A stretch of DNA of 17,132 nt, from NCBI GenBank assembly GCA_027357125.1, contig DAHVVW010000003.1:1-17132 (forward strand), in the 5' to 3' direction. Position numbers and translations under genes: made by a program. Below are positions 956 through 17,132 of this stretch, piece by piece. Under the pieces are notes generated by a model, which saw only the letters and a program-made list of their open reading frames with translations, searched no databases and was not told the DNA's origin. The stretch's first letter is position 1. Every line of letters starts with the position of its first letter. Origin of the DNA: Clostridiales bacterium (GTDB taxonomy: Bacteria; Bacillota; Desulfitobacteriia; Desulfitobacteriales; Desulfitobacteriaceae).

Positions 956-2059
956 CTACACCCTTGACTCAGGGCTTAGCATTATTTCCTGCAGGGACCT
1001 TATTTTCCCTGTGATATCGGGACTGCCCACTATCTCTGTCACCAAGGCCACTGTCCTGGCCCCTGTCCGCACCACCTCAGCCAGATTGTATTCTTTAATG
1101 CCCCCGATAGCTACGAACGGAATCTCTATGTTCTGGACGACATAGCGCAAATAATCTAGCCCAACCGGGGCACAGACATCTGTTTTCGTATACGTCTGAT
1201 AGAGGGGCCCGACCCCGATATAATCCGCTCCCTCTGCCACAGCAGCCAGGGCCTGCTCCGGGGAATGCGTAGAAATCCCGATCATTAACTCAGAGCCGAC
1301 CAGTTCCCTTACCACTGACAATGGCAAATCGTCCTGCCCGATATGAACCCCATCGGCAGCTATTGCCAGAGCTAACTCGACATGATCGTTAACAATGAAC
1401 ACTGCCCCAGCTGCGTCCGTCAGACGGCGAAGTTCCAGGCATTCCCGATACATTTGGTGCTGTGTTTTTTCTTTTTCGCGGTACTGCAGAATTTTTACCC
1501 CTGCCTCCAGGATTTCTTTGGCAACCTCTAGGTTGCTCCGGCCCAGGGAATGTCTCTCCGCGGTTAGGGCATACAGCCCTGACGGAAGGGTTTTCCTTGC
1601 GGCCTTGGCTTCTTCAGGTGGATAAAGATAAGGAGCTAGCTCAAGTTCCAAATTATATGAGGCAAATCGCAGCTTTTCCGTTTCTTTAGCCAAGGGGCGT
1701 TCTCCTAACAAATGCGCTGATTCTTCCAGCACGCGCAGCCCTTCCTGAACCCGTTTGAGGTTGGCGAGCAAGAGGCCTTCGAAACCCACTTTACTGTCAA
1801 GACCTTGCTGCTGGCTAATGAACAGGCCTGGATCGCGCGCAACATCGCGCTGGCTTAGAAGTCGGGGCTGAAGGTCTTGGAAGGTTTGACGCACCCGATG
1901 GCGTAGGCCTCGAACTGTGCGGCACCGGTCTCCGTCTCCCACACCGAAACGCAGCACGTCTTCTACAACCCTAAGCCCCTCTGCCACCCGGTTCAGATTC
2001 GCATCCATGAGACGCAGCACAAGTATGGAAGGTTTTTGAACCCCTGAAACGGTGCTCAC
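956..2059 (-). CDS. thiE: Bifunctional HMP-P kinase (ThiD2 domain) / thiamine-phosphate synthase ThiE
   Basis: This 367-residue protein has two domains. Residues about 15-150 match what I know as the ThiD2 domain, seen in the signature LMDANLNRVAEGLRVVEDVLRF, repeated more loosely as ANLKRVQEGLRVLEESAH; this family phosphorylates HMP-P to HMP-PP. Residues about 160-360 are a TIM-barrel ThiE that joins HMP-PP and thiazole phosphate to thiamin phosphate. Its landmarks are ILQYREK, FIVNDHVELA, ADGVHIGQDDLP, IGISTHS, YIGVGPLYQT and VAIGGI. The start is GTG at 2057-2059, overlapping the thiH stop (GTGA), which suggests translational coupling. The fusion would give both steps from ThiC product to thiamin phosphate in one chain. 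ThiE is certain; the ThiD2 assignment rests on remembered family motifs. Confidence 0.93.
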   Translation of the reverse strand: MSTVSGVQKPSILVLRLMDANLNRVAEGLRVVEDVLRFGVGDGDRCRTVRGLRHRVRQTFQDLQPRLLSQRDVARDPGLFISQQQGLDSKVGFEGLLLANLKRVQEGLRVLEESAHLLGERPLAKETEKLRFASYNLELELAPYLYPPEEAKAARKTLPSGLYALTAERHSLGRSNLEVAKEILEAGVKILQYREKEKTQHQMYRECLELRRLTDAAGAVFIVNDHVELALAIAADGVHIGQDDLPLSVVRELVGSELMIGISTHSPEQALAAVAEGADYIGVGPLYQTYTKTDVCAPVGLDYLRYVVQNIEIPFVAIGGIKEYNLAEVVRTGARTVALVTEIVGSPDITGKIRSLQEIMLSPESRV

Positions 2060-3183
2060 CTGCCTACACTCCCCTCGATGCCCTTCAAGTTGATCCAGTC
2101 GCGATATACCGGCTGGTAACCGCTCCGACTAAGCATAGAAGCGATCTCTGGTACAGAGCGCTCATCCGCTATTTCAAACTGTGTGCTCCCGGCCGTGGAC
2201 GCATACCCGCCGACAGAAGTTAAAGAACCTGCGGACATTCTGGTAACCCCTAAAGGAAGCAAGGATTCCCGTAAATGCGGGCTTTCGCGGGTAGATAAGG
2301 TAATACCGGCGCGCGGCAGATAAAGCCTGTATGCAAGGATAATCTGCACCAAGGCAACATCCGTTACCGGGCTTGCCTGAGGCTGAAACCCCCCGACATG
2401 TGGCCTGAGCCTGGGTACAGAAAGAGCGATTTCCACGTCCGGGTAATTCTTTTGCAAATACTGCGCATGGAGCGCGGTTGCCCAGGCATCTTCCCGCCAC
2501 TCTCCCAACCCGAGCAAAGCACCGATATTAACACCGGGAATTCCGGCCCGGCAGGCCCTTTCCGGTGCATCCAAACGCCAGCGGTAGTCGCGTTTGGGCC
2601 CGGCGGGGTGCACTGAAGCATAGACCTTTTCATCATAAGTCTCCTGAAATAGAGTCAAGGAATCCACTCCACCTTCATAGAGATGCTCATATTCCTCTTC
2701 TGCCAACGGATAAACCTCAATTCCCAGGGACGCAAAGTAAGGACGAAGGCGTTCCACACAAGCCTGAATGTACCCAGGGCCGCTATGCTGGCGCGACTCC
2801 CCGGTTAAGAGCAAGAGGTGTCCCAGACCAGTGTCCGCCACCGCCTGTCCTTCTAACTCGACTTCCTGCAAGGTCAGTTTACGCCTGTCGATTGAATTCC
2901 TGCAATTGAAGCTGCAATACAGGCAACTGTTAGCACAGTAGTTAGCGAGATACAAAGGAGCAAAGAGCGAGATGGTTCTGCCGAAGTTCCGAGCGGTCAA
3001 TTGCCGTGCTTTTTGTGCCATCTCTTCCAACAAGGGAAGAGCTGACGGGGACAACAAGGCCATTAAATCATGAGGATCTAACCGTTCACAGGCCAGAGCC
3101 CGCCTGACATCACTCTCCCGATAAATCTTGTCTTTGAGCAAAGCCAGTTTCTGACGCTGCGATTTAAGATAGTCGTAAAACAT
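2056..3183 (-). CDS. thiH: 2-iminoacetate synthase (tyrosine lyase) ThiH
   Basis: ThiH is the radical-SAM enzyme that cleaves tyrosine to dehydroglycine and p-cresol, supplying the glycine imine for the thiazole ring in anaerobes, where aerobes use the oxidase ThiO. The SAM-cluster motif is CANSCLYCSF (CxxxCxxC), and further family features are LLLLTGES, EVYPL, the VHPAGPKRDYRWR stretch, GALLGLGEWR, and SVPRLRPH. The frame extends to a TTG at 3204 inside thiG, but I prefer the ATG at 3181-3183. It has GAGG about 11 bases upstream and gives the usual N-terminus MFYDYLK, leaving 375 residues. It lies 13 bases after the thiG stop and overlaps the thiE start. Function is confident; the exact start is less so. 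Confidence 0.95.
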   Translation of the reverse strand: MFYDYLKSQRQKLALLKDKIYRESDVRRALACERLDPHDLMALLSPSALPLLEEMAQKARQLTARNFGRTISLFAPLYLANYCANSCLYCSFNCRNSIDRRKLTLQEVELEGQAVADTGLGHLLLLTGESRQHSGPGYIQACVERLRPYFASLGIEVYPLAEEEYEHLYEGGVDSLTLFQETYDEKVYASVHPAGPKRDYRWRLDAPERACRAGIPGVNIGALLGLGEWREDAWATALHAQYLQKNYPDVEIALSVPRLRPHVGGFQPQASPVTDVALVQIILAYRLYLPRAGITLSTRESPHLRESLLPLGVTRMSAGSLTSVGGYASTAGSTQFEIADERSVPEIASMLSRSGYQPVYRDWINLKGIEGSVGR

Positions 3184-3196
3184 CACTGCACCATCC

Positions 3197-4012
3197 TCAG
3201 TCAACCGTTAATGCTTCATGCAAAAAGCCCGTTAGGGGGGAGGAAGCCTGGGCTTGCTCTGTGCGCGCTCCCGGGCCGGCAAGATGTGCCAGACGCCCCG
3301 CCTCCACCGCCAGCCGGAAGGCCCTGGCCATAGCCACAGGGTTTTCAGCAGTGGCGATAGCCGTATTAACGAGCACAGCCGCAGCCCCCATCTCCATTGC
3401 CTCCGCCGCCTCGGACGGACGGCCGATCCCGGCGTCTACGATCACGGGTAACGGTATTTCCTCAATTAAAATTTTAATTAATTCCCGCGTCTTAAGCCCA
3501 CGGTTGCTCCCTATAGGCGCTCCCAGGGGCATCACTGCTGCCGCCCCAGCTTCAAGTAGCCTCCGGGCCGTGCTTAGGTCAGGGCTAACATAGGGCAGAA
3601 CTGTAAAGCCCTCCTTCACCAGGATTTCTGTAGCGATTACCGTTTCAAAATTATCCGGCAGTAAGTAGTGCTGGTCACGGATCACTTCAATCTTGACCCA
3701 GTCCCCGCAGCCTGCCGCCCGCGCCAGACGGGCAATACGCACCGCTTCTTCGGCCGTGCGGGCACCCGAAGTGTTGGGCAAGAGTACCAGACCGTCAGTT
3801 AGATAATTGAGAATATTTTCTTGCGGATTCTGCCAATCCACCCTTCTTAAGGCCATCGTGACCACTTGGGAAGCGGCAGACTCTATCACCGAGGGAACTA
3901 CCGCGTGCGCCGGAAATTTCCCGGTACCGACGAATAAGCGGCTGGTGAGCTTAACCCCGCCTATTTCCAACCAATCTTCAACCGGCACAATCGGCATGTT
4001 TACGTGTGTCAC
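3197..4012 (-). CDS. thiG: Thiazole synthase ThiG
   Basis: ThiG condenses deoxyxylulose 5-phosphate, dehydroglycine and the thiocarboxylate sulfur of ThiS into thiazole phosphate carboxylate. The 271-residue TIM barrel shows SRLFVGTGK near the N-terminus, VTMALRR, LLPNTSG, the catalytic lysine in WVKIEVI (K107), [22 protein letters not shown] and the phosphate-binding [13 protein letters not shown] followed by AVLVNTAIA. Length and motif order are normal. The start is GTG at 4010-4012, because GGAGGAGGG ends about 6 bases upstream. That ribosome site is formed by the last codons of thiS. A later ATG at 3997 has no comparable site. The gene sits 3 bases after thiS and just before thiH, as expected for ThiG-ThiH complex partners. 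Confidence 0.97.
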
Positions 4013-4015
4013 TTT

Positions 4016-4222
4016 TTACCCTCCTCCCAATAGTACAAGAACTTCCAGCTTATCCCCTTCATGCAAGACAGTGCTTGGCCACAACTCGCGTTCGAGAATT
4101 TCTCCGTTATACTCCACAACTGTCCATGCCTTGAAGTTGTTCTGACCCTCCAGCCACGCGCGTAAAGCGAGGCCATCCTGAATCTCCGTTTCCTTGCCGT
4201 TCACGGTAATGTTAATGTTCAT
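4016..4222 (-). CDS. thiS: Sulfur carrier protein ThiS
   Basis: ThiS is a small ubiquitin-fold protein whose C-terminal glycine is adenylated (by ThiF) and then thiocarboxylated to carry sulfur to ThiG. The product from the ATG at 4220-4222 is 68 residues: MNINITVNGKETEI at the start, a beta-grasp pattern with VVEYNGEILER, and the diagnostic GDKLEVLVLLGGG terminus. The frame can be extended to a TTG at 4240, but the AAGGGGGG ribosome site lies inside that extension and directly precedes the ATG. It is the first gene after the riboswitch and attenuator. No thiF is visible in the window, so the activating enzyme must be encoded elsewhere or beyond the left edge. Confidence 0.93.
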   Translation of the reverse strand: MNINITVNGKETEIQDGLALRAWLEGQNNFKAWTVVEYNGEILERELWPSTVLHEGDKLEVLVLLGGG

Positions 4223-4370
4223 GTTCCCCCCTTCTCTCAAACATCTGCTAGAAGCTAGAGCAGCCCGGCCTCTGGCTTGAGTTGCCCAGGTAAGAATATT
4301 TCCGGCCCTCCATCTGGTTTACCTACTGGAAAAGCTGAATCGCGGCCCAGTCCGTTTCCCGTTGGCAAAC

Positions 4371-5797: not shown

Positions 5798-6775
5798 TTG
5801 CCTAACTGGAGCGAACAAGCTAAAAACCTGACCGAAAAACGGTTATGGGTTCTCGGGTATGCTGCCGAGGACTTTCCGGGAGATGCACGCTCATTGCAAA
5901 CTCTAAGACAGTTTGGCAGCAGTATCGATGTTTATGCGGATTTCGCTTATTTAGTCCAGCCTGATGCCAGTTTCAGGGGCAACCTAAGCACTAGTTTGTG
6001 GTCTGAAGCTAGAGCACGAGGCATCGCGCCCCTGATTCTCTTCCATAACTTTAGCGGGTCCCGTTTTGACTCCCAGTTAATTGGGGGTGTTCTGTCCTCG
6101 CCTACTCTTCAGCGCTCCTTGATTAACAATATTCTGGAACTAACTCTCCCGTCAGCAGCCGGCATACATTTAGACTTTGAGGCTATCTTAAAGGAGCACA
6201 GGGTTTTATATGTCTCATTTCTCGAATCTATGGCAGTTGCTCTACACAAGCGTGGCCTTCTTCTCACGCTTGCCGTTCCTGCCAAACGCTCAGAATGGGA
6301 AGGCCCGGGGTATGATTTCGCCGCCATTGGCCGCATTTGTGATGCAGTCACGATCATGACCTATGACGAGCACTATAGTGGCGGAGATGCCGGACCGGTT
6401 GCCAGCCTGCCCTGGATGACCCAAGCACTCGATTATGCCATTAAACACATTCCGCGCACAAAAATCCTAGTCGGCATCCCTGTTTACGGTTATGATTGGT
6501 CTAATGAACCTACGCGCATGATCCCAATGCGAGATATTCCGGAGGTGGTTGCTAAGACTCAAGCACGCGTCCTCTGGTCTGACCCAGCGGTCGAACCGTA
6601 TTTCTATTATTGGCAGGAGCGCCAGAAGCATACAGTCTGGTTCGAAAATGAAATTTCCGCTAAAGTGCGCATCGGATTTGTCAGATCCTACCGCCTGCGC
6701 GGCATCGCCATTTGGCGGCTCGGGTATGAAAACAACCGCTTCTGGCAGGGACTAGCCAACAAGCTTAAACGCTAG
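5798..6775 (+). CDS. GH18-family glycosidase, spore cortex-lytic (YaaH/SleL) type catalytic domain
   Basis: This is a 325-residue glycoside hydrolase family 18 TIM barrel. The catalytic motif is GIHLDFEAI (D126, E128 as proton donor), followed by LTLAVPAK and VTIMTYDEHYSG (Y189-D190), then GPVASLPWM, KILVGIPVYGYDW and GIAIWRLGYEN near the end. The YDEH...AGPVASLPW block is characteristic of spore peptidoglycan N-acetylglucosaminidases such as SleL/YaaH, which act on cortex fragments during germination. Unlike those, this protein shows no LysM repeats and no signal peptide, so it is a bare catalytic domain. It could act inside the mother cell or be packaged into the spore; that is inference. 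The start is TTG at 5798, with AAGGGGGA about 9 bases upstream. Two terminator-like hairpins follow. Confidence 0.9.
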   Translation: MPNWSEQAKNLTEKRLWVLGYAAEDFPGDARSLQTLRQFGSSIDVYADFAYLVQPDASFRGNLSTSLWSEARARGIAPLILFHNFSGSRFDSQLIGGVLSSPTLQRSLINNILELTLPSAAGIHLDFEAILKEHRVLYVSFLESMAVALHKRGLLLTLAVPAKRSEWEGPGYDFAAIGRICDAVTIMTYDEHYSGGDAGPVASLPWMTQALDYAIKHIPRTKILVGIPVYGYDWSNEPTRMIPMRDIPEVVAKTQARVLWSDPAVEPYFYYWQERQKHTVWFENEISAKVRIGFVRSYRLRGIAIWRLGYENNRFWQGLANKLKR

Positions 6776-6783
6776 CTCAAATA

Positions 6784-6809
6784 GAAAAACCTCCCGCGGG
6801 AGGTTTTTC
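6784..6809 (+). terminator. Intrinsic terminator, probably bidirectional
   Basis: A perfect 26-base palindrome (GAAAAACCTCCCG / CGGGAGGTTTTTC) lies 8 bases after the GH18 stop, between convergent genes. The T-rich end on both strands suits termination of both the GH18 transcript and the minus-strand selenoprotein transcript. Confidence 0.88.
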
Positions 6810-6878
6810 TTATACCAATCAGAAAGTATAAATTTCTGGTGGCACAAGTGCAACTACGGCTTCTGCCTTCGCCTATGG

Positions 6879-6898
6879 CTCGGCGCAAGCCGAGTTTT
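6879..6898 (+). terminator. Second plus-strand terminator-like hairpin
   Basis: CTCGGC-GCAA-GCCGAG is a 6-bp GC-rich stem closed by a GNRA-type tetraloop and followed by TTTTCTTT. It sits about 100 bases after the first hairpin and shortly before the end of the convergent gene, so it may act as a back-up terminator. Confidence 0.6.
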
Positions 6899-6924
6899 CT
6901 TTGTCGGCAAATTACTTATCTTAC

Positions 6925-7587
6925 TTACTGTACAGCTTTCATCAAATTCTTGACAAACACAGCTTCCGGAACTGCTCCCTCAAACTGAACATCTTCATTA
7001 ATAACTGACTTGGGAACGCCATATACATTATATTTTTGGGACAGATCCGGATACTCAGTTGCTTCAATCGATTCAGCCTTAATATGTGAATTAAGCATGG
7101 CAAACTGGTGAGCCGTGCGCACGGCACGGGGACAATGCGGTCAGGTAGGTGTGACAAAAACTTTAATTGTCACATCTTTCTGAACAGATTCCACCTGTTG
7201 GATTACATCTGCAGTAAGCTTAATCTTACCGCTGGAAAGATCCGCTAAGTCTTCAATAAGTACCCCGAACTCATACCCGGAAGGAATACCATAAAACCTT
7301 ACCCCGGTATCAGTTCCTTCTTCCTTCTCCAGTACCAGAGCAGGAAAATACTGAACATTATATTCCTTAGCCTTGTCTTCTGTAGTAGCCTTGTGGACAA
7401 CTAAGTTCAACTTATCGCTTAGATCCACGACTTCCTGAGCAATCTGCTCCGTCTCTGAACAATACATGCACTCTCCCGGCTCACTGGGATCTTGCAAGAA
7501 GAGACGGAGAGTTACCGGATTAACCAGTTGCTGGGAAAAATAGTCCTTGATTGCTGTAGCATCCTTCTCGGACAACAACTTAGCCAA
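6925..7587 (-). CDS. Selenocysteine-containing protein disulfide oxidoreductase (glutaredoxin/PDO-like, two thioredoxin folds)
   Basis: Read through the TGA at 7141-7143, this is one 220-residue protein. Residues 1-110 form a thioredoxin fold with C40-M-Y-C43 and a cis-Pro loop (YFPAL, P82). Residues 140-220 form a second fold starting TIKVFVTPT, then U149-P-H-C152, and a second cis-Pro loop in YNVYGVPKS (P192). Two tandem thioredoxin folds of about 220 residues are the known layout of the PDO/glutaredoxin-like family, whose C-terminal site is CPxC. The TGA replaces exactly the attacking cysteine. A SECIS-like hairpin follows at 7113-7129. The start is TTG at 7585-7587, with AAGGAGGGG about 6 bases upstream. 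Likely role: thiol/diselenide oxidoreductase in the cytoplasm. A nonsense mutation is the alternative, but position, frame and hairpin argue against it. Confidence 0.9.
7113..7129 (-). promoter_or_regulatory. Bacterial SECIS-like stem-loop
   Basis: Eleven bases after the TGA, the minus strand forms CCGUGC-CGUGC-GCACGG: a perfect 6-bp stem with a 5-base loop having G at loop position 2. The loop begins 17 bases after the UGA. Known bacterial SECIS elements have a small apical loop, an early guanine in it, and lie roughly 16-37 bases after the UGA, so this fits recognition by SelB. An alternative zero-loop palindrome (GCCGTGC/GCACGGC) exists in the same bases. Confidence 0.75.
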
Positions 7588-7614
7588 CCTTACCCCTCCT
7601 TAAGTTGAATTGAG

Positions 7615-7660
7615 AAAAAACCACGTTCTTTTACTCTGTCTTAGCCTTAGCCGAACGTGG
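7615..7660 (-). terminator. Leader terminator/attenuator-like hairpin upstream of the selenoprotein gene
   Basis: On the minus strand CCACGTTC (7653-7660) and GAACGTGG (7621-7628) form an 8-bp stem around a 24-base loop, followed directly by TTTTTT. It lies between the inferred promoter and the start codon, and no minus-strand gene precedes it, so it is not an ordinary end-of-operon terminator. The loop holds a short direct repeat (GGCTAAG, GCTAAG). No leader peptide is evident. Confidence 0.65.
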
Positions 7661-7676
7661 GAATTTTATGACCTTT

Positions 7677-7705
7677 ATTATAACGGACTAACAAACATTT
7701 GTATA
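7677..7705 (-). promoter_or_regulatory. Putative sigma-A promoter of the selenoprotein gene
   Basis: The minus strand has TATACA (7700-7705, 4 of 6 consensus bases) and a consensus TATAAT (7677-7682) with a 17-base spacer. Transcription would start near 7670, giving a leader of about 80 bases that contains the attenuator-like hairpin. The -35 overlaps the palindrome at 7702-7720. Confidence 0.6.
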
Positions 7706-7720
7706 CCCCTTATGGGTATA
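7702..7720. promoter_or_regulatory. CsoR/CstR-like operator palindrome
   Basis: TATACCC and GGGTATA flank a 5-base centre. The core ATACCC-N5-GGGTAT has the arms and spacing of the operators I know for CsoR-family repressors (for example the Bacillus copZA site), which sense copper or persulfides. It overlaps the -35 box of the selenoprotein promoter and lies 80 bases upstream of the divergent ComFB-like gene. No CsoR-family gene is in the window. Confidence 0.45.
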
Positions 7721-7800
7721 TTGCGGGAAAATTTTGCTTGTTCTGGCGTTAACAAACCATTAAGATAATATTAAGGAATAATAACAAAGGAGACATTACC

Positions 7801-8127
7801 ATGTACGAGTTAAAAAACCATACCGAAACAGTTGTCCGGCAGGCACTCCAGGATTATTTAAAGCGAAGCAAGCTTCGTTGCGGCTGTGAGCGCTGCCAGT
7901 CCGACATCATGGCTATGACCCTTAACCGCTTGCCTGCCCGCTATTATGTCTCTCTGCGCGGGGAAATTCTGACACAGTGGGAATCCCAAGCCTTGCCTGA
8001 TCAAGCCCGCGTCATGGCTGAAGTAGTGCGGGCCTGTCAGCAGGTCGATGCTACTCCTTCACACACTGCAAATGATTCAGTCAGCATTAATGAGAATAAT
8101 AACAGCGAAAACGGCTACAACCAATAG
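7801..8127 (+). CDS. ComFB-family protein
   Basis: The 108-residue product matches the ComFB pattern: an N-terminal helix (YELKNHTETVVRQAL), a cysteine cluster C27-x-C29-x2-C32, then DIMAMTLNRLPARYYVSLRGE. ComFB was named for a late competence operon in Bacillus, and members of the family have since been reported to bind cyclic dinucleotides; neither role can be read from the sequence alone. The cysteine cluster suggests metal binding. The tail from about residue 85 is polar and low in complexity (TANDSVSINENNNSENG). The ATG has AAAGGAG 9 bases upstream. It is divergent from the selenoprotein gene and no com genes are next to it. No clear promoter was found. Confidence 0.8.
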   Translation: MYELKNHTETVVRQALQDYLKRSKLRCGCERCQSDIMAMTLNRLPARYYVSLRGEILTQWESQALPDQARVMAEVVRACQQVDATPSHTANDSVSINENNNSENGYNQ

Positions 8128-14847: not shown

Positions 14848-17132
14848 CTAATTTCTCAGCTCATTTTTCCCTTTTTCGTCAGGTAATTTGTCGTCAAAAA
14901 GGTATTCCTTCTTGTTAGTGCTCTTCTCGATAATGAGCTCTGCCGTGTGTTTGACAAAGATCTTAGAATTCCTCTTGTCCAAGCCACCGGCAATCTGCAT
15001 GAGGCAGCCCGGACAATCCACGGCTACAACCTCAGCCCCGCTTGCCTCGATATTTCTTAGTTTGCGCTCCAGAATGGGTGCTGACAGCTCCGGGAATTTG
15101 AGGGAATAGGAACCGCCAAACCCGCAGCAACTATCGGATTCTTTCATTTCCACCAGTACGATCCCTTTAGTATGGCTCAGGTGCTGGCGCGGCTCAGCAA
15201 ATACGCCCGCTTTGCGTTTGAGATGGCAGGAATCATGATAGGTTACTTTTACCGCCTGTTCCTGTTCGTCCTGACCTTTAGGCTTACTATTCTCACGATT
15301 CTCTTCATTCTTGCGATGTGTTCTATTCTCCCAATGCGCTCCATGCTCTCCGTCTTCTTCAGCGTCTAAGCCTCCAAGTTCGCTGAGAAGCTGGGAGAAA
15401 TCCCTGGCCTTGTACTTAAGTTCCTTAGCTCTCTGAGCCCAGATGGGATCATTCGCCACCAGCTCACCATAGCTGTCCTTAAGAGCATGCGTACAAGTCG
15501 GACAAGCTGTGACCACATAGTCAACCTCTTCCGCATTAAGGGCTTCAATATTAAGCACAGCGGCTTTGCGCGCGTTATCCCGATCCCCCATATAACTGGC
15601 CGGTGCTCCGCAGCAGGACTGTCCAACTGGAAAAGTCACTTCATACCCTTTTTTATTAAGAGCCTTAATCACGGACTCCCCTATCTGCGGGTAAACAAAG
15701 TCAATAAGGCACCCCGCATAAAGGGCAATCTTTCCCATGGGAGAACTGACTTCTTGCTTAATACTTTTGAAGATATCCCTAAATGGTACGTCTGCAATCG
15801 CCGGTAGACTTTTCTGCTCGGTCAGCCCAGAGAGAGATAATGGCAAATGCCGAATAAATCCTTGCCCTTTACTGACTGGTTTTTGCGCCTTTGATGCCAC
15901 TCTTAACAGGGAATGAAAAAGGTGCCTATTCGATACGACATCAAGAGCAAATTTTTGCGTAAATGGCAAACCTTTTTTCTCTCCCAATCTATTTCTTAGT
16001 TCAAGAATCATGTCCGGAATATCTAACTTGCCGGGACAGACTTCCGCGCATTTCCCACATTGGAGGCAGAGATTCTGTACGTCCTTGGCGTCATCTTCAG
16101 AATGGAGAAAGGCTGTAAGTATCGCACCAATCCCCCCAGTATAAATATGGCCATAGACGTGCCCCCCCACAAGTTGGTAAATTGGGCACACATTAAGGCA
16201 GGAAGCACAACGGATGCACTGAAACGTTTTCTTAAACTTATCGTCAGCATACATGTGCCTGCGCCCATTATCCATGAGAACAATATGGAATTCCTTGTCC
16301 TGTGCGGTTCCGTCCGGATAGTAGGCCGGCGTAGGCCCGGTAATCATGGTCACATAACTGGTAAGCTGCTGGGCAGTGGCGCTGCGGGGCAGAGTTTGTA
16401 AGATGTGGACAGCATCTTCAAACTTCGGGATCAACTTCTCGATCCCGACCAGAAAGACATGTACTCGGGGAAGAGTGGAGGTAAGACGGGCATTTCCTTC
16501 GTTGGTCAGCATGACTAAGGTGCCCGTTTCCGCAATCGCCAGGTTGGCCCCGGATATTCCCATATCCGCTTGCAGAAATTTCTTCCTGAGTTCCGTGCGG
16601 GCCGTCTTTACCAGAGTCGCGATTTCCGGTTCGTTGTGGCGGTGCAGGTTATCTGTAAACACCCCCGCCACTTGTTCTTTGGTCATGTGAATAGCAGGCA
16701 GCACCATATGGGAAGGGCGCTGGCCCGCCAGCTGAATGATCCACTCCCCCAAGTCTGTCTCCTGCACATCACACCCGGCTGCCGCTAAAGCCTGGTTAAG
16801 GTGAATTTCTTCGGAGGCCATGGATTTGGACTTGACGATATTTTTAACCCCGTTGCGAGCGGCTACTTCAGTGATATATCGCTTGGCATCCTCAGCAGTC
16901 GCTGCCCGGTATACCTTAGCGCCCCGGTTTATAGCGGCTTTTTCAAACCGGTCCAGCATTTCCTCAAGATGCACCGCAGCATAGACTTTTGCTTCCGCTA
17001 CCTTTGAACGCAGTTCCTCAAAATCATACCCCTCATAAGCTTTGGCCCTCGCTTCAATATAAGTGTCTCCGAATCTACCCAAGGCTCCTCGCAGCACTTG
17101 GTTGTCTAAGGCCTTTCTGATTTTGCCCTTAA
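14848..17132 (-). CDS. LdhH-type lactate oxidation iron-sulfur protein (LutB-LutA fusion), 5' end off the right edge
   Basis: The frame is open to the right edge (KGKIRKALDNQVLRGAL precedes the first in-window GTG at 17097), so the N-terminus is missing by a few residues. Counting from that GTG, about 1-280 are a LutB/DUF162-like domain (VKSKSMASEEI, ETDLGEWIIQLAGQRPSH), followed by two ferredoxin motifs, CIRCASCLNVCP and CLQCGKCAEVCP. Then come two LutA-like CCG repeats (AGCLIDFVYP, SCCGAPASY, TACPTCTH; then DSCHLKR, SCCGFGGSY, DCPGCLMQ). Such fusions (LdhH in sulfate reducers) pass electrons from lactate oxidation with partner LutC and a D- or L-lactate dehydrogenase; those partners would lie to the right. 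An unusual 40-residue hydrophilic linker (about 577-616) separates the CCG repeats. Confidence 0.92.
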   Translation of the reverse strand, partial: KGKIRKALDNQVLRGALGRFGDTYIEARAKAYEGYDFEELRSKVAEAKVYAAVHLEEMLDRFEKAAINRGAKVYRAATAEDAKRYITEVAARNGVKNIVKSKSMASEEIHLNQALAAAGCDVQETDLGEWIIQLAGQRPSHMVLPAIHMTKEQVAGVFTDNLHRHNEPEIATLVKTARTELRKKFLQADMGISGANLAIAETGTLVMLTNEGNARLTSTLPRVHVFLVGIEKLIPKFEDAVHILQTLPRSATAQQLTSYVTMITGPTPAYYPDGTAQDKEFHIVLMDNGRRHMYADDKFKKTFQCIRCASCLNVCPIYQLVGGHVYGHIYTGGIGAILTAFLHSEDDAKDVQNLCLQCGKCAEVCPGKLDIPDMILELRNRLGEKKGLPFTQKFALDVVSNRHLFHSLLRVASKAQKPVSKGQGFIRHLPLSLSGLTEQKSLPAIADVPFRDIFKSIKQEVSSPMGKIALYAGCLIDFVYPQIGESVIKALNKKGYEVTFPVGQSCCGAPASYMGDRDNARKAAVLNIEALNAEEVDYVVTACPTCTHALKDSYGELVANDPIWAQRAKELKYKARDFSQLLSELGGLDAEEDGEHGAHWENRTHRKNEENRENSKPKGQDEQEQAVKVTYHDSCHLKRKAGVFAEPRQHLSHTKGIVLVEMKESDSCCGFGGSYSLKFPELSAPILERKLRNIEASGAEVVAVDCPGCLMQIAGGLDKRNSKIFVKHTAELIIEKSTNKKEYLFDDKLPDEKGKNELRN

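Follow-up and report, generated by a model that had tools for sequence, protein, structure and literature searches.

Results

The gene and its predicted product

The analysed stretch of DNA (the window; 17,132 nucleotides of contig DAHVVW010000003.1 from a bacterium of the Desulfitobacteriaceae) carries on its minus strand a frame of 148 codons that begins with TTG, runs into a TGA and then stays open for another 71 codons, as the initial annotation had described, up to a TAA ending at position 6925. The features of the locus are as follows.

6925..7587, minus strand: predicted coding frame of a selenocysteine-containing protein disulfide oxidoreductase (Sec-PDO); TTG start at 7587-7585, TGA/Sec codon 149, TAA stop, 220 residues
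7141..7143, minus strand: TGA/Sec codon, U149, first residue of the C-terminal UPHC; assigned from its column in 38 aligned relatives
7593..7600, minus strand: ribosome-binding-site-like AGGAGGGG, 5' of the TTG start, read from the sequence
7113..7129, minus strand: SECIS-like hairpin CCGUGC-CGUGC-GCACGG, 11 nt past the UGA, with a G at loop position 2
7677..7705, minus strand: promoter-like TATACA-17-TATAAT, 10/12 in a consensus scan
7703..7719, minus strand: palindrome ATACCCATAAGGGGTAT, overlapping the -35-like hexamer; putative CsoR-family operator

Plain ORF calling breaks this frame in two, a 148-aa ORF and a 65-aa one that starts with GTG (6925-7122). When the TGA is read as U, the 220-residue translation has CMYC in its N-terminal unit and U149-P-H-C152 in its C-terminal unit; thus the TGA stands for the first cysteine of the C-terminal site while the N-terminal site is intact, and the marks of a PDO, namely two thioredoxin units with one redox CxxC and one UxxC, are both present. 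The proposed completion of a second thioredoxin fold downstream of the TGA is borne out by the Pfam family Thioredoxin_3, matched by each half alone (1.4e-6 and 1.2e-13). The assignment to PDO-like proteins likewise stands, since the whole read-through protein scores 260.5 bits against the NCBIfam family TIGR02187 (PDO_seleno_TRX; curated cut-off 185) over profile positions 2-209 of 209. The solved PDO-type structures 1j08 and 1a8l match residues 4-219 with a cysteine opposite the TGA, in a sequence match for which the TGA was entered as C in the query.

Relatives and selection around the TGA

Matches above the TIGR02187 cut-off, weak one-domain matches being excluded, were found in 8 of 82 genomes of the class, and all eight contain exactly one in-frame TGA. 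A sample of 398 genomes of the phylum gave 31 such matches in 26 genomes, 14 with one TGA and 17 with none; the five second copies above the cut-off (genomes G265, G440, G336, G380 and G234) and four fused or weaker ones were not aligned. Loci L025, L021 and L022 were excluded as duplicates, being the same proteins as L016, L017 and L018 (identical BLAST rows). The nearest named relative is Paradesulfitobacterium ferrireducens (L016).

The alignment with homologs proposed earlier as a check gives a clear outcome: among 38 aligned relatives, the Sec column holds TGA in 20 and a Cys codon (TGT or TGC) in 18. Four AhpF-like rows (L028-L031) are among the 18 Cys rows of the column and hairpin counts and are omitted from the distinct-row pairing and the tree. 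The tree of 34 rows requires at least two changes between the Sec and Cys labels; since 9 of its 31 inner branches are unresolved and long branches come together, no number of switches is claimed. In G380 and in G234, two PDO copies exceed the cut-off, of which one has an in-frame TGA and the other has none, possibly as Sec/Cys paralog pairs; the TGA position of the second copy in G380 lies outside the alignment. One scan of viral contigs with six peptide patterns confirmed no PDO relative.

Against L016, dN is 0.046 on the 5' side of the TGA and 0.022 on the 3' side, so the decay of the downstream part, which would have spoken against a selenoprotein, is not seen, and comparison of the coding sequences indicates that purifying selection acts on both sides of the codon. 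The 12 codons past the TGA are conserved even at synonymous sites (0 differences on 9.3 sites against L016, whereas the upstream part has 41.5 on 100.0 and the rest of the downstream part 21.0 on 38.2). The same local freeze is observed against L017, L018, L023 and L024, with pS of 0.11-0.21 in these codons and 0.71-0.87 elsewhere, and is less marked against L026 (pS 0.43).

These data bear on the possibility that the TGA is a true stop, a mutation or a sequencing error, what follows it being either a decaying remnant or a small gene of its own. The 65-aa ORF and the fragmented state of the assembly would fit it. However, a single TGA is found in every above-cut-off match of the class, at the same column in those aligned, dN is low past the TGA, and the GTG of the small ORF falls inside the active-site helix region and leaves out the UPHC motif; a genuine stop is therefore highly improbable.

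Selenocysteine machinery

The selenocysteine genes whose presence had been set as a further check were all found in the source genome (383 contigs totalling 2.2 Mb; completeness 76%, stated contamination 2.43%). Profile searches detect SelA (490 bits) and SelB (338.7 bits), and tRNA-Sec is present with 66.8 bits, over 47, and is reported by ARAGORN as well. Two selD genes score above the cut-off; in both, an in-frame TGA marks the beginning of the active-site stretch, which reads GUGCK in one and GUACK in the other. Both are full-length (L008, G000:C371:6597-7526; L009, G000:C166:1761-2675), and the pair could be paralogs or could reflect assembly contamination.

The SECIS-like hairpin

Bacterial SECIS elements are hairpins located directly after the UGA, with a G early in the loop. 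The 12 codons with nearly unchanged synonymous sites surround the candidate hairpin, the stem of which joins bases 15-20 with 26-31, counted from the U of the UGA. All six pairs form in 16 of the 20 Sec rows and in none of the 18 Cys rows, where 1 to 5 of the six stem positions pair; among the 14 distinct Sec rows (of 20) paired cells make up 88.1%, versus 56.0% among 14 of the 18 Cys rows. Among the remaining Sec rows, L059 retains 4 of 6 pairs, and L064, L066 and L068, with 2 of 6, have instead a different hairpin that lies 3 nt further on. Stem position 17/29 occurs as G-C, G-U and A-U, and position 18/28 as U-A and G-C.

The covariation score lies above shuffles (497 of 500 lower, 3 as high), while the count of doubly changed pairs is no greater than in shuffles (241 of 500 as high). 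Hairpin-region stability is no better than that of shuffled sequence (z of 0.21, -0.06 and -0.69), and windows of 57 and 81 nt prefer another fold over the SECIS-like hairpin. An Rfam scan of 6600-8000 with E up to 1 gave four matches, all under gathering scores and taken as chance.

Gene neighborhood, putative promoter and leader

The order GH18 - PDO - ComFB-like - small ORF - Crp-type regulator - ORF - helicase is the same in L017 and L018. It is also the same in L016, with the small ORF unmatched, and is partly kept in L024, L026 and L027; L023, L059 and L064 are short loci in which PDO alone is visible. Since its upstream neighbor in the window is divergent and its downstream neighbor convergent, PDO is probably transcribed alone. 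Elsewhere in the window, on the minus strand, lie a thiamine operon of the order thiS-thiG-thiH-type radical SAM-thiD2/thiE fusion (956-4240; ThiG, BATS/radical SAM, and ThiD2 with TMP-TENI by Pfam, ThiS only from a look at the sequence) and ldhH, encoding the large subunit of L-lactate dehydrogenase (quinone) (14848-17097; NCBIfam 1065 versus a cut-off of 800 bits).

The promoter scan is weak on its own, with 3 sites versus 1.9 in shuffles; the TATAAT is conserved in six aligned relatives. Between the promoter and the PDO start lies a terminator-like hairpin, CCACGTTC...GAACGTGG, with a run of six T behind it (7660-7615, minus strand); it is not clearly conserved in relatives. Its role as an attenuator was considered and dropped: by eye, the form in L016 is weaker and lacks the T-run, and none is seen in L017 and L018.

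The palindrome upstream of Sec-PDO

Of the eight Sec-PDO loci of the class, all but L024 (in genome G007) carry the palindrome TACCC-N4-GGGGTA 90-143 nt 5' of the gene; for each of these seven, none of 200 shuffled sequences gave an equally good site. Beyond the class, a one-mismatch site precedes the Cys-form gene L069 (3/200 shuffles as good) and a two-mismatch site precedes L059 (22/200), and the shuffle test gave no convincing palindrome for the other rows outside the class. In the 60 bases 5' of the palindrome, identity to the window is 30/60 in L016 and 17-20/60 in the other five compared; these sequences were aligned on exact palindromes and match at the site itself by construction.

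The palindrome upstream of thioredoxin genes

The same exact palindrome occurs 11-18 nt before a CsoR-family (PF02583) gene in all eight Sec-PDO genomes of the class (G000, G001, G002, G007, G039, G040, G042 and G045). This gene is followed by thioredoxin in seven of them; in G045 a thioredoxin gene is preceded by a different site. The palindrome also stands before trxB in seven of the eight (it is absent in G045) and before a gene resembling a Trx-TrxR fusion in five. One of these five putative fusions, in which a thioredoxin domain is joined to a thioredoxin-reductase domain behind the palindrome (L152:165-1442, minus strand), was identified by family scan; the others (L132, L137, L140 and L155) were grouped with it by BLAST. 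Another gene behind the same palindrome (L139:652-1449, minus strand) encodes a DUF5714 protein, with like proteins in L122 and L147; its similarity to the double selenoprotein MbdU is weak (148.6 bits, under the cut-off of 600).

For comparison, 23 of 32 distinct palindromes were read in eight relatives without a full-length PDO above the cut-off. The site precedes csoR-trx in five of these genomes (G014, G018, G036, G050 and G051) and trxB in three (G014, G018 and G036); in G014 and G036 these are the sole exact palindromes. Because csoR-trx and trxB carry the palindrome in PDO-free relatives too, they look, by genome comparison, like the core of a regulon to which PDO was added. Fifteen of the 23 sites read adjoin none of the four query genes, and many of the other palindromes look like unrelated sites or noise.

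Three PF02583 genes are present in the source genome, one of them the trx-linked regulator; another, L090, adjoins what reads from its sequence as a copper-type P-type ATPase. The Cys, His and Cys of the trx-linked regulator, which we take to be the copper ligands of CsoR, align with CsoR (2hh7), in an alignment that does not separate copper from persulfide sensing.

There is an appreciable, though lesser, probability that the palindrome is not a CsoR-family operator at all, being bound by another repressor or associated with trx by chance. Several observations lean this way. Reversed-pattern controls, with 0-4 matches in the other Sec-PDO genomes, reach 17 versus 9 real sites in G007, and among the PDO-free relatives they give 8 versus 6 in G004, 7 versus 2 in G036 and 3 versus 2 in G014. 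Palindromes also precede genes for an SBF transporter, DUF1638 and DUF5714 proteins, a ferredoxin and a ParA-type NTPase, besides the 15 sites near none of the query genes; the Sec-PDO of G007 has none, and the genome offers three PF02583 regulators. On the other side are the constant position before the same CsoR-family gene in 8/8 genomes, the trxB sites in 7/8, and the recurrence before csoR-trx and trxB in PDO-free genomes, including the two with no further exact palindrome. Moreover, the available text of PMC10318464 describes the targets of CsoR-type regulators as pseudo-palindromes with runs of at least four G or C, a form that favors a CsoR-family operator here.

Discussion

The product of the gene is very probably a protein disulfide oxidoreductase of the TIGR02187 family that has two thioredoxin folds and a Sec-Pro-His-Cys C-terminal site, with UGA 149 decoded as selenocysteine. 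The initial proposal of a true selenoprotein is thus supported by the Sec machinery, by the TGA/Cys column and by purifying selection downstream of the TGA. From the sequence comparisons, UGA 149 would be decoded by SelB and tRNA-Sec, aided by the adjacent downstream hairpin. Dual use of the codon, read as Sec when selenium is plentiful and otherwise as a stop, so that the N-terminal unit of 148 residues would arise as a second, regulated product, seems unlikely. The N-terminal unit alone is indeed a complete thioredoxin-like domain that keeps its CMYC, but 4 of the 20 Sec rows lack the N-terminal CxxC, while the UxxC is retained in all 20; activity as a free enzyme is therefore not a general property of the N-terminal unit.

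The reading as a PDO-like selenoprotein is right, but the family is already known: TIGR02187 with UxxC is among the listed selenoprotein families, and so Sec-PDO is not new. The selenoprotein tables in the accessible parts of PMC9312934 and PMC13188914 name it "Homolog of AhpF N-terminal domain (Grx-like domain protein)", and PMC1794560, as far as its available text goes, counts it for Carboxydothermus and Symbiobacterium. Our protein agrees with these relatives in the full-length above-cut-off match, the two Thioredoxin_3 units and the Sec in the C-terminal UxxC, and nothing in the protein itself differs; in contrast, an operator-like promoter site is not mentioned for the known ones in the portions of these papers at hand. 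The promoter palindrome and the putative regulon are what is added over the known family.

The archaeal PDOs (1j08, 1a8l; Sulfolobus PDO, PMC7465337) share the two-unit layout over residues 4-219. Their C-terminal site has cysteines at the position of the Sec-bearing site, whereas in Sec-PDO the first of these is replaced by Sec, and the host is bacterial. According to the available text of PMC7465337, PDOs are confined to thermophiles, which was counted against the Sec-PDO reading. The same text states that NADPH and thioredoxin reductase supply electrons to the archaeal PDO. For Sec-PDO we infer a similar route, in which thioredoxin reductase would pass electrons of NADPH on to the C-terminal U149-C152 pair, either directly or via the N-terminal CMYC, and the U149 selenolate may then reduce disulfides of target proteins or peroxiredoxins. 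Control shared with trxB would fit the same electron donor.

That Sec-PDO has its promoter palindrome in common with the genes for thioredoxin and thioredoxin reductase suggests that one redox switch acts on all of them. From the distribution of the sites we consider it fairly probable that Sec-PDO is an added member of a thioredoxin regulon under CsoR-family control. On balance we also lean, with somewhat less confidence, towards a fuller scheme: the CsoR-family repressor encoded before trx would govern trx, trxB and some Trx-TrxR fusions and would have taken in Sec-PDO as a branch that receives its electrons from thioredoxin reductase; the level of the Sec-based disulfide reductase would then be set by a metal or persulfide signal. 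A literature search of limited scope returned no paper on a thioredoxin regulon controlled by a CsoR-family regulator. The CsoR/CstR-type regulons described in the accessible parts of PMC10318464, PMC9918477 and PMC9405070 likewise have a PF02583 regulator and a pseudo-palindrome with G/C runs over the promoter. Their targets, as given there, are copper export or sulfur genes, with a hypothetical thioredoxin in one cluster; unlike them, the putative regulon described here has trx, trxB, the Trx-TrxR fusion and Sec-PDO as its targets.

With its Sec codon, the gene extends a listed selenoprotein family by one species. The common operator, if it acts as predicted, would give this family a physiological setting, as it points to thioredoxin reductase for the supply of electrons and to a CsoR-type signal for induction.
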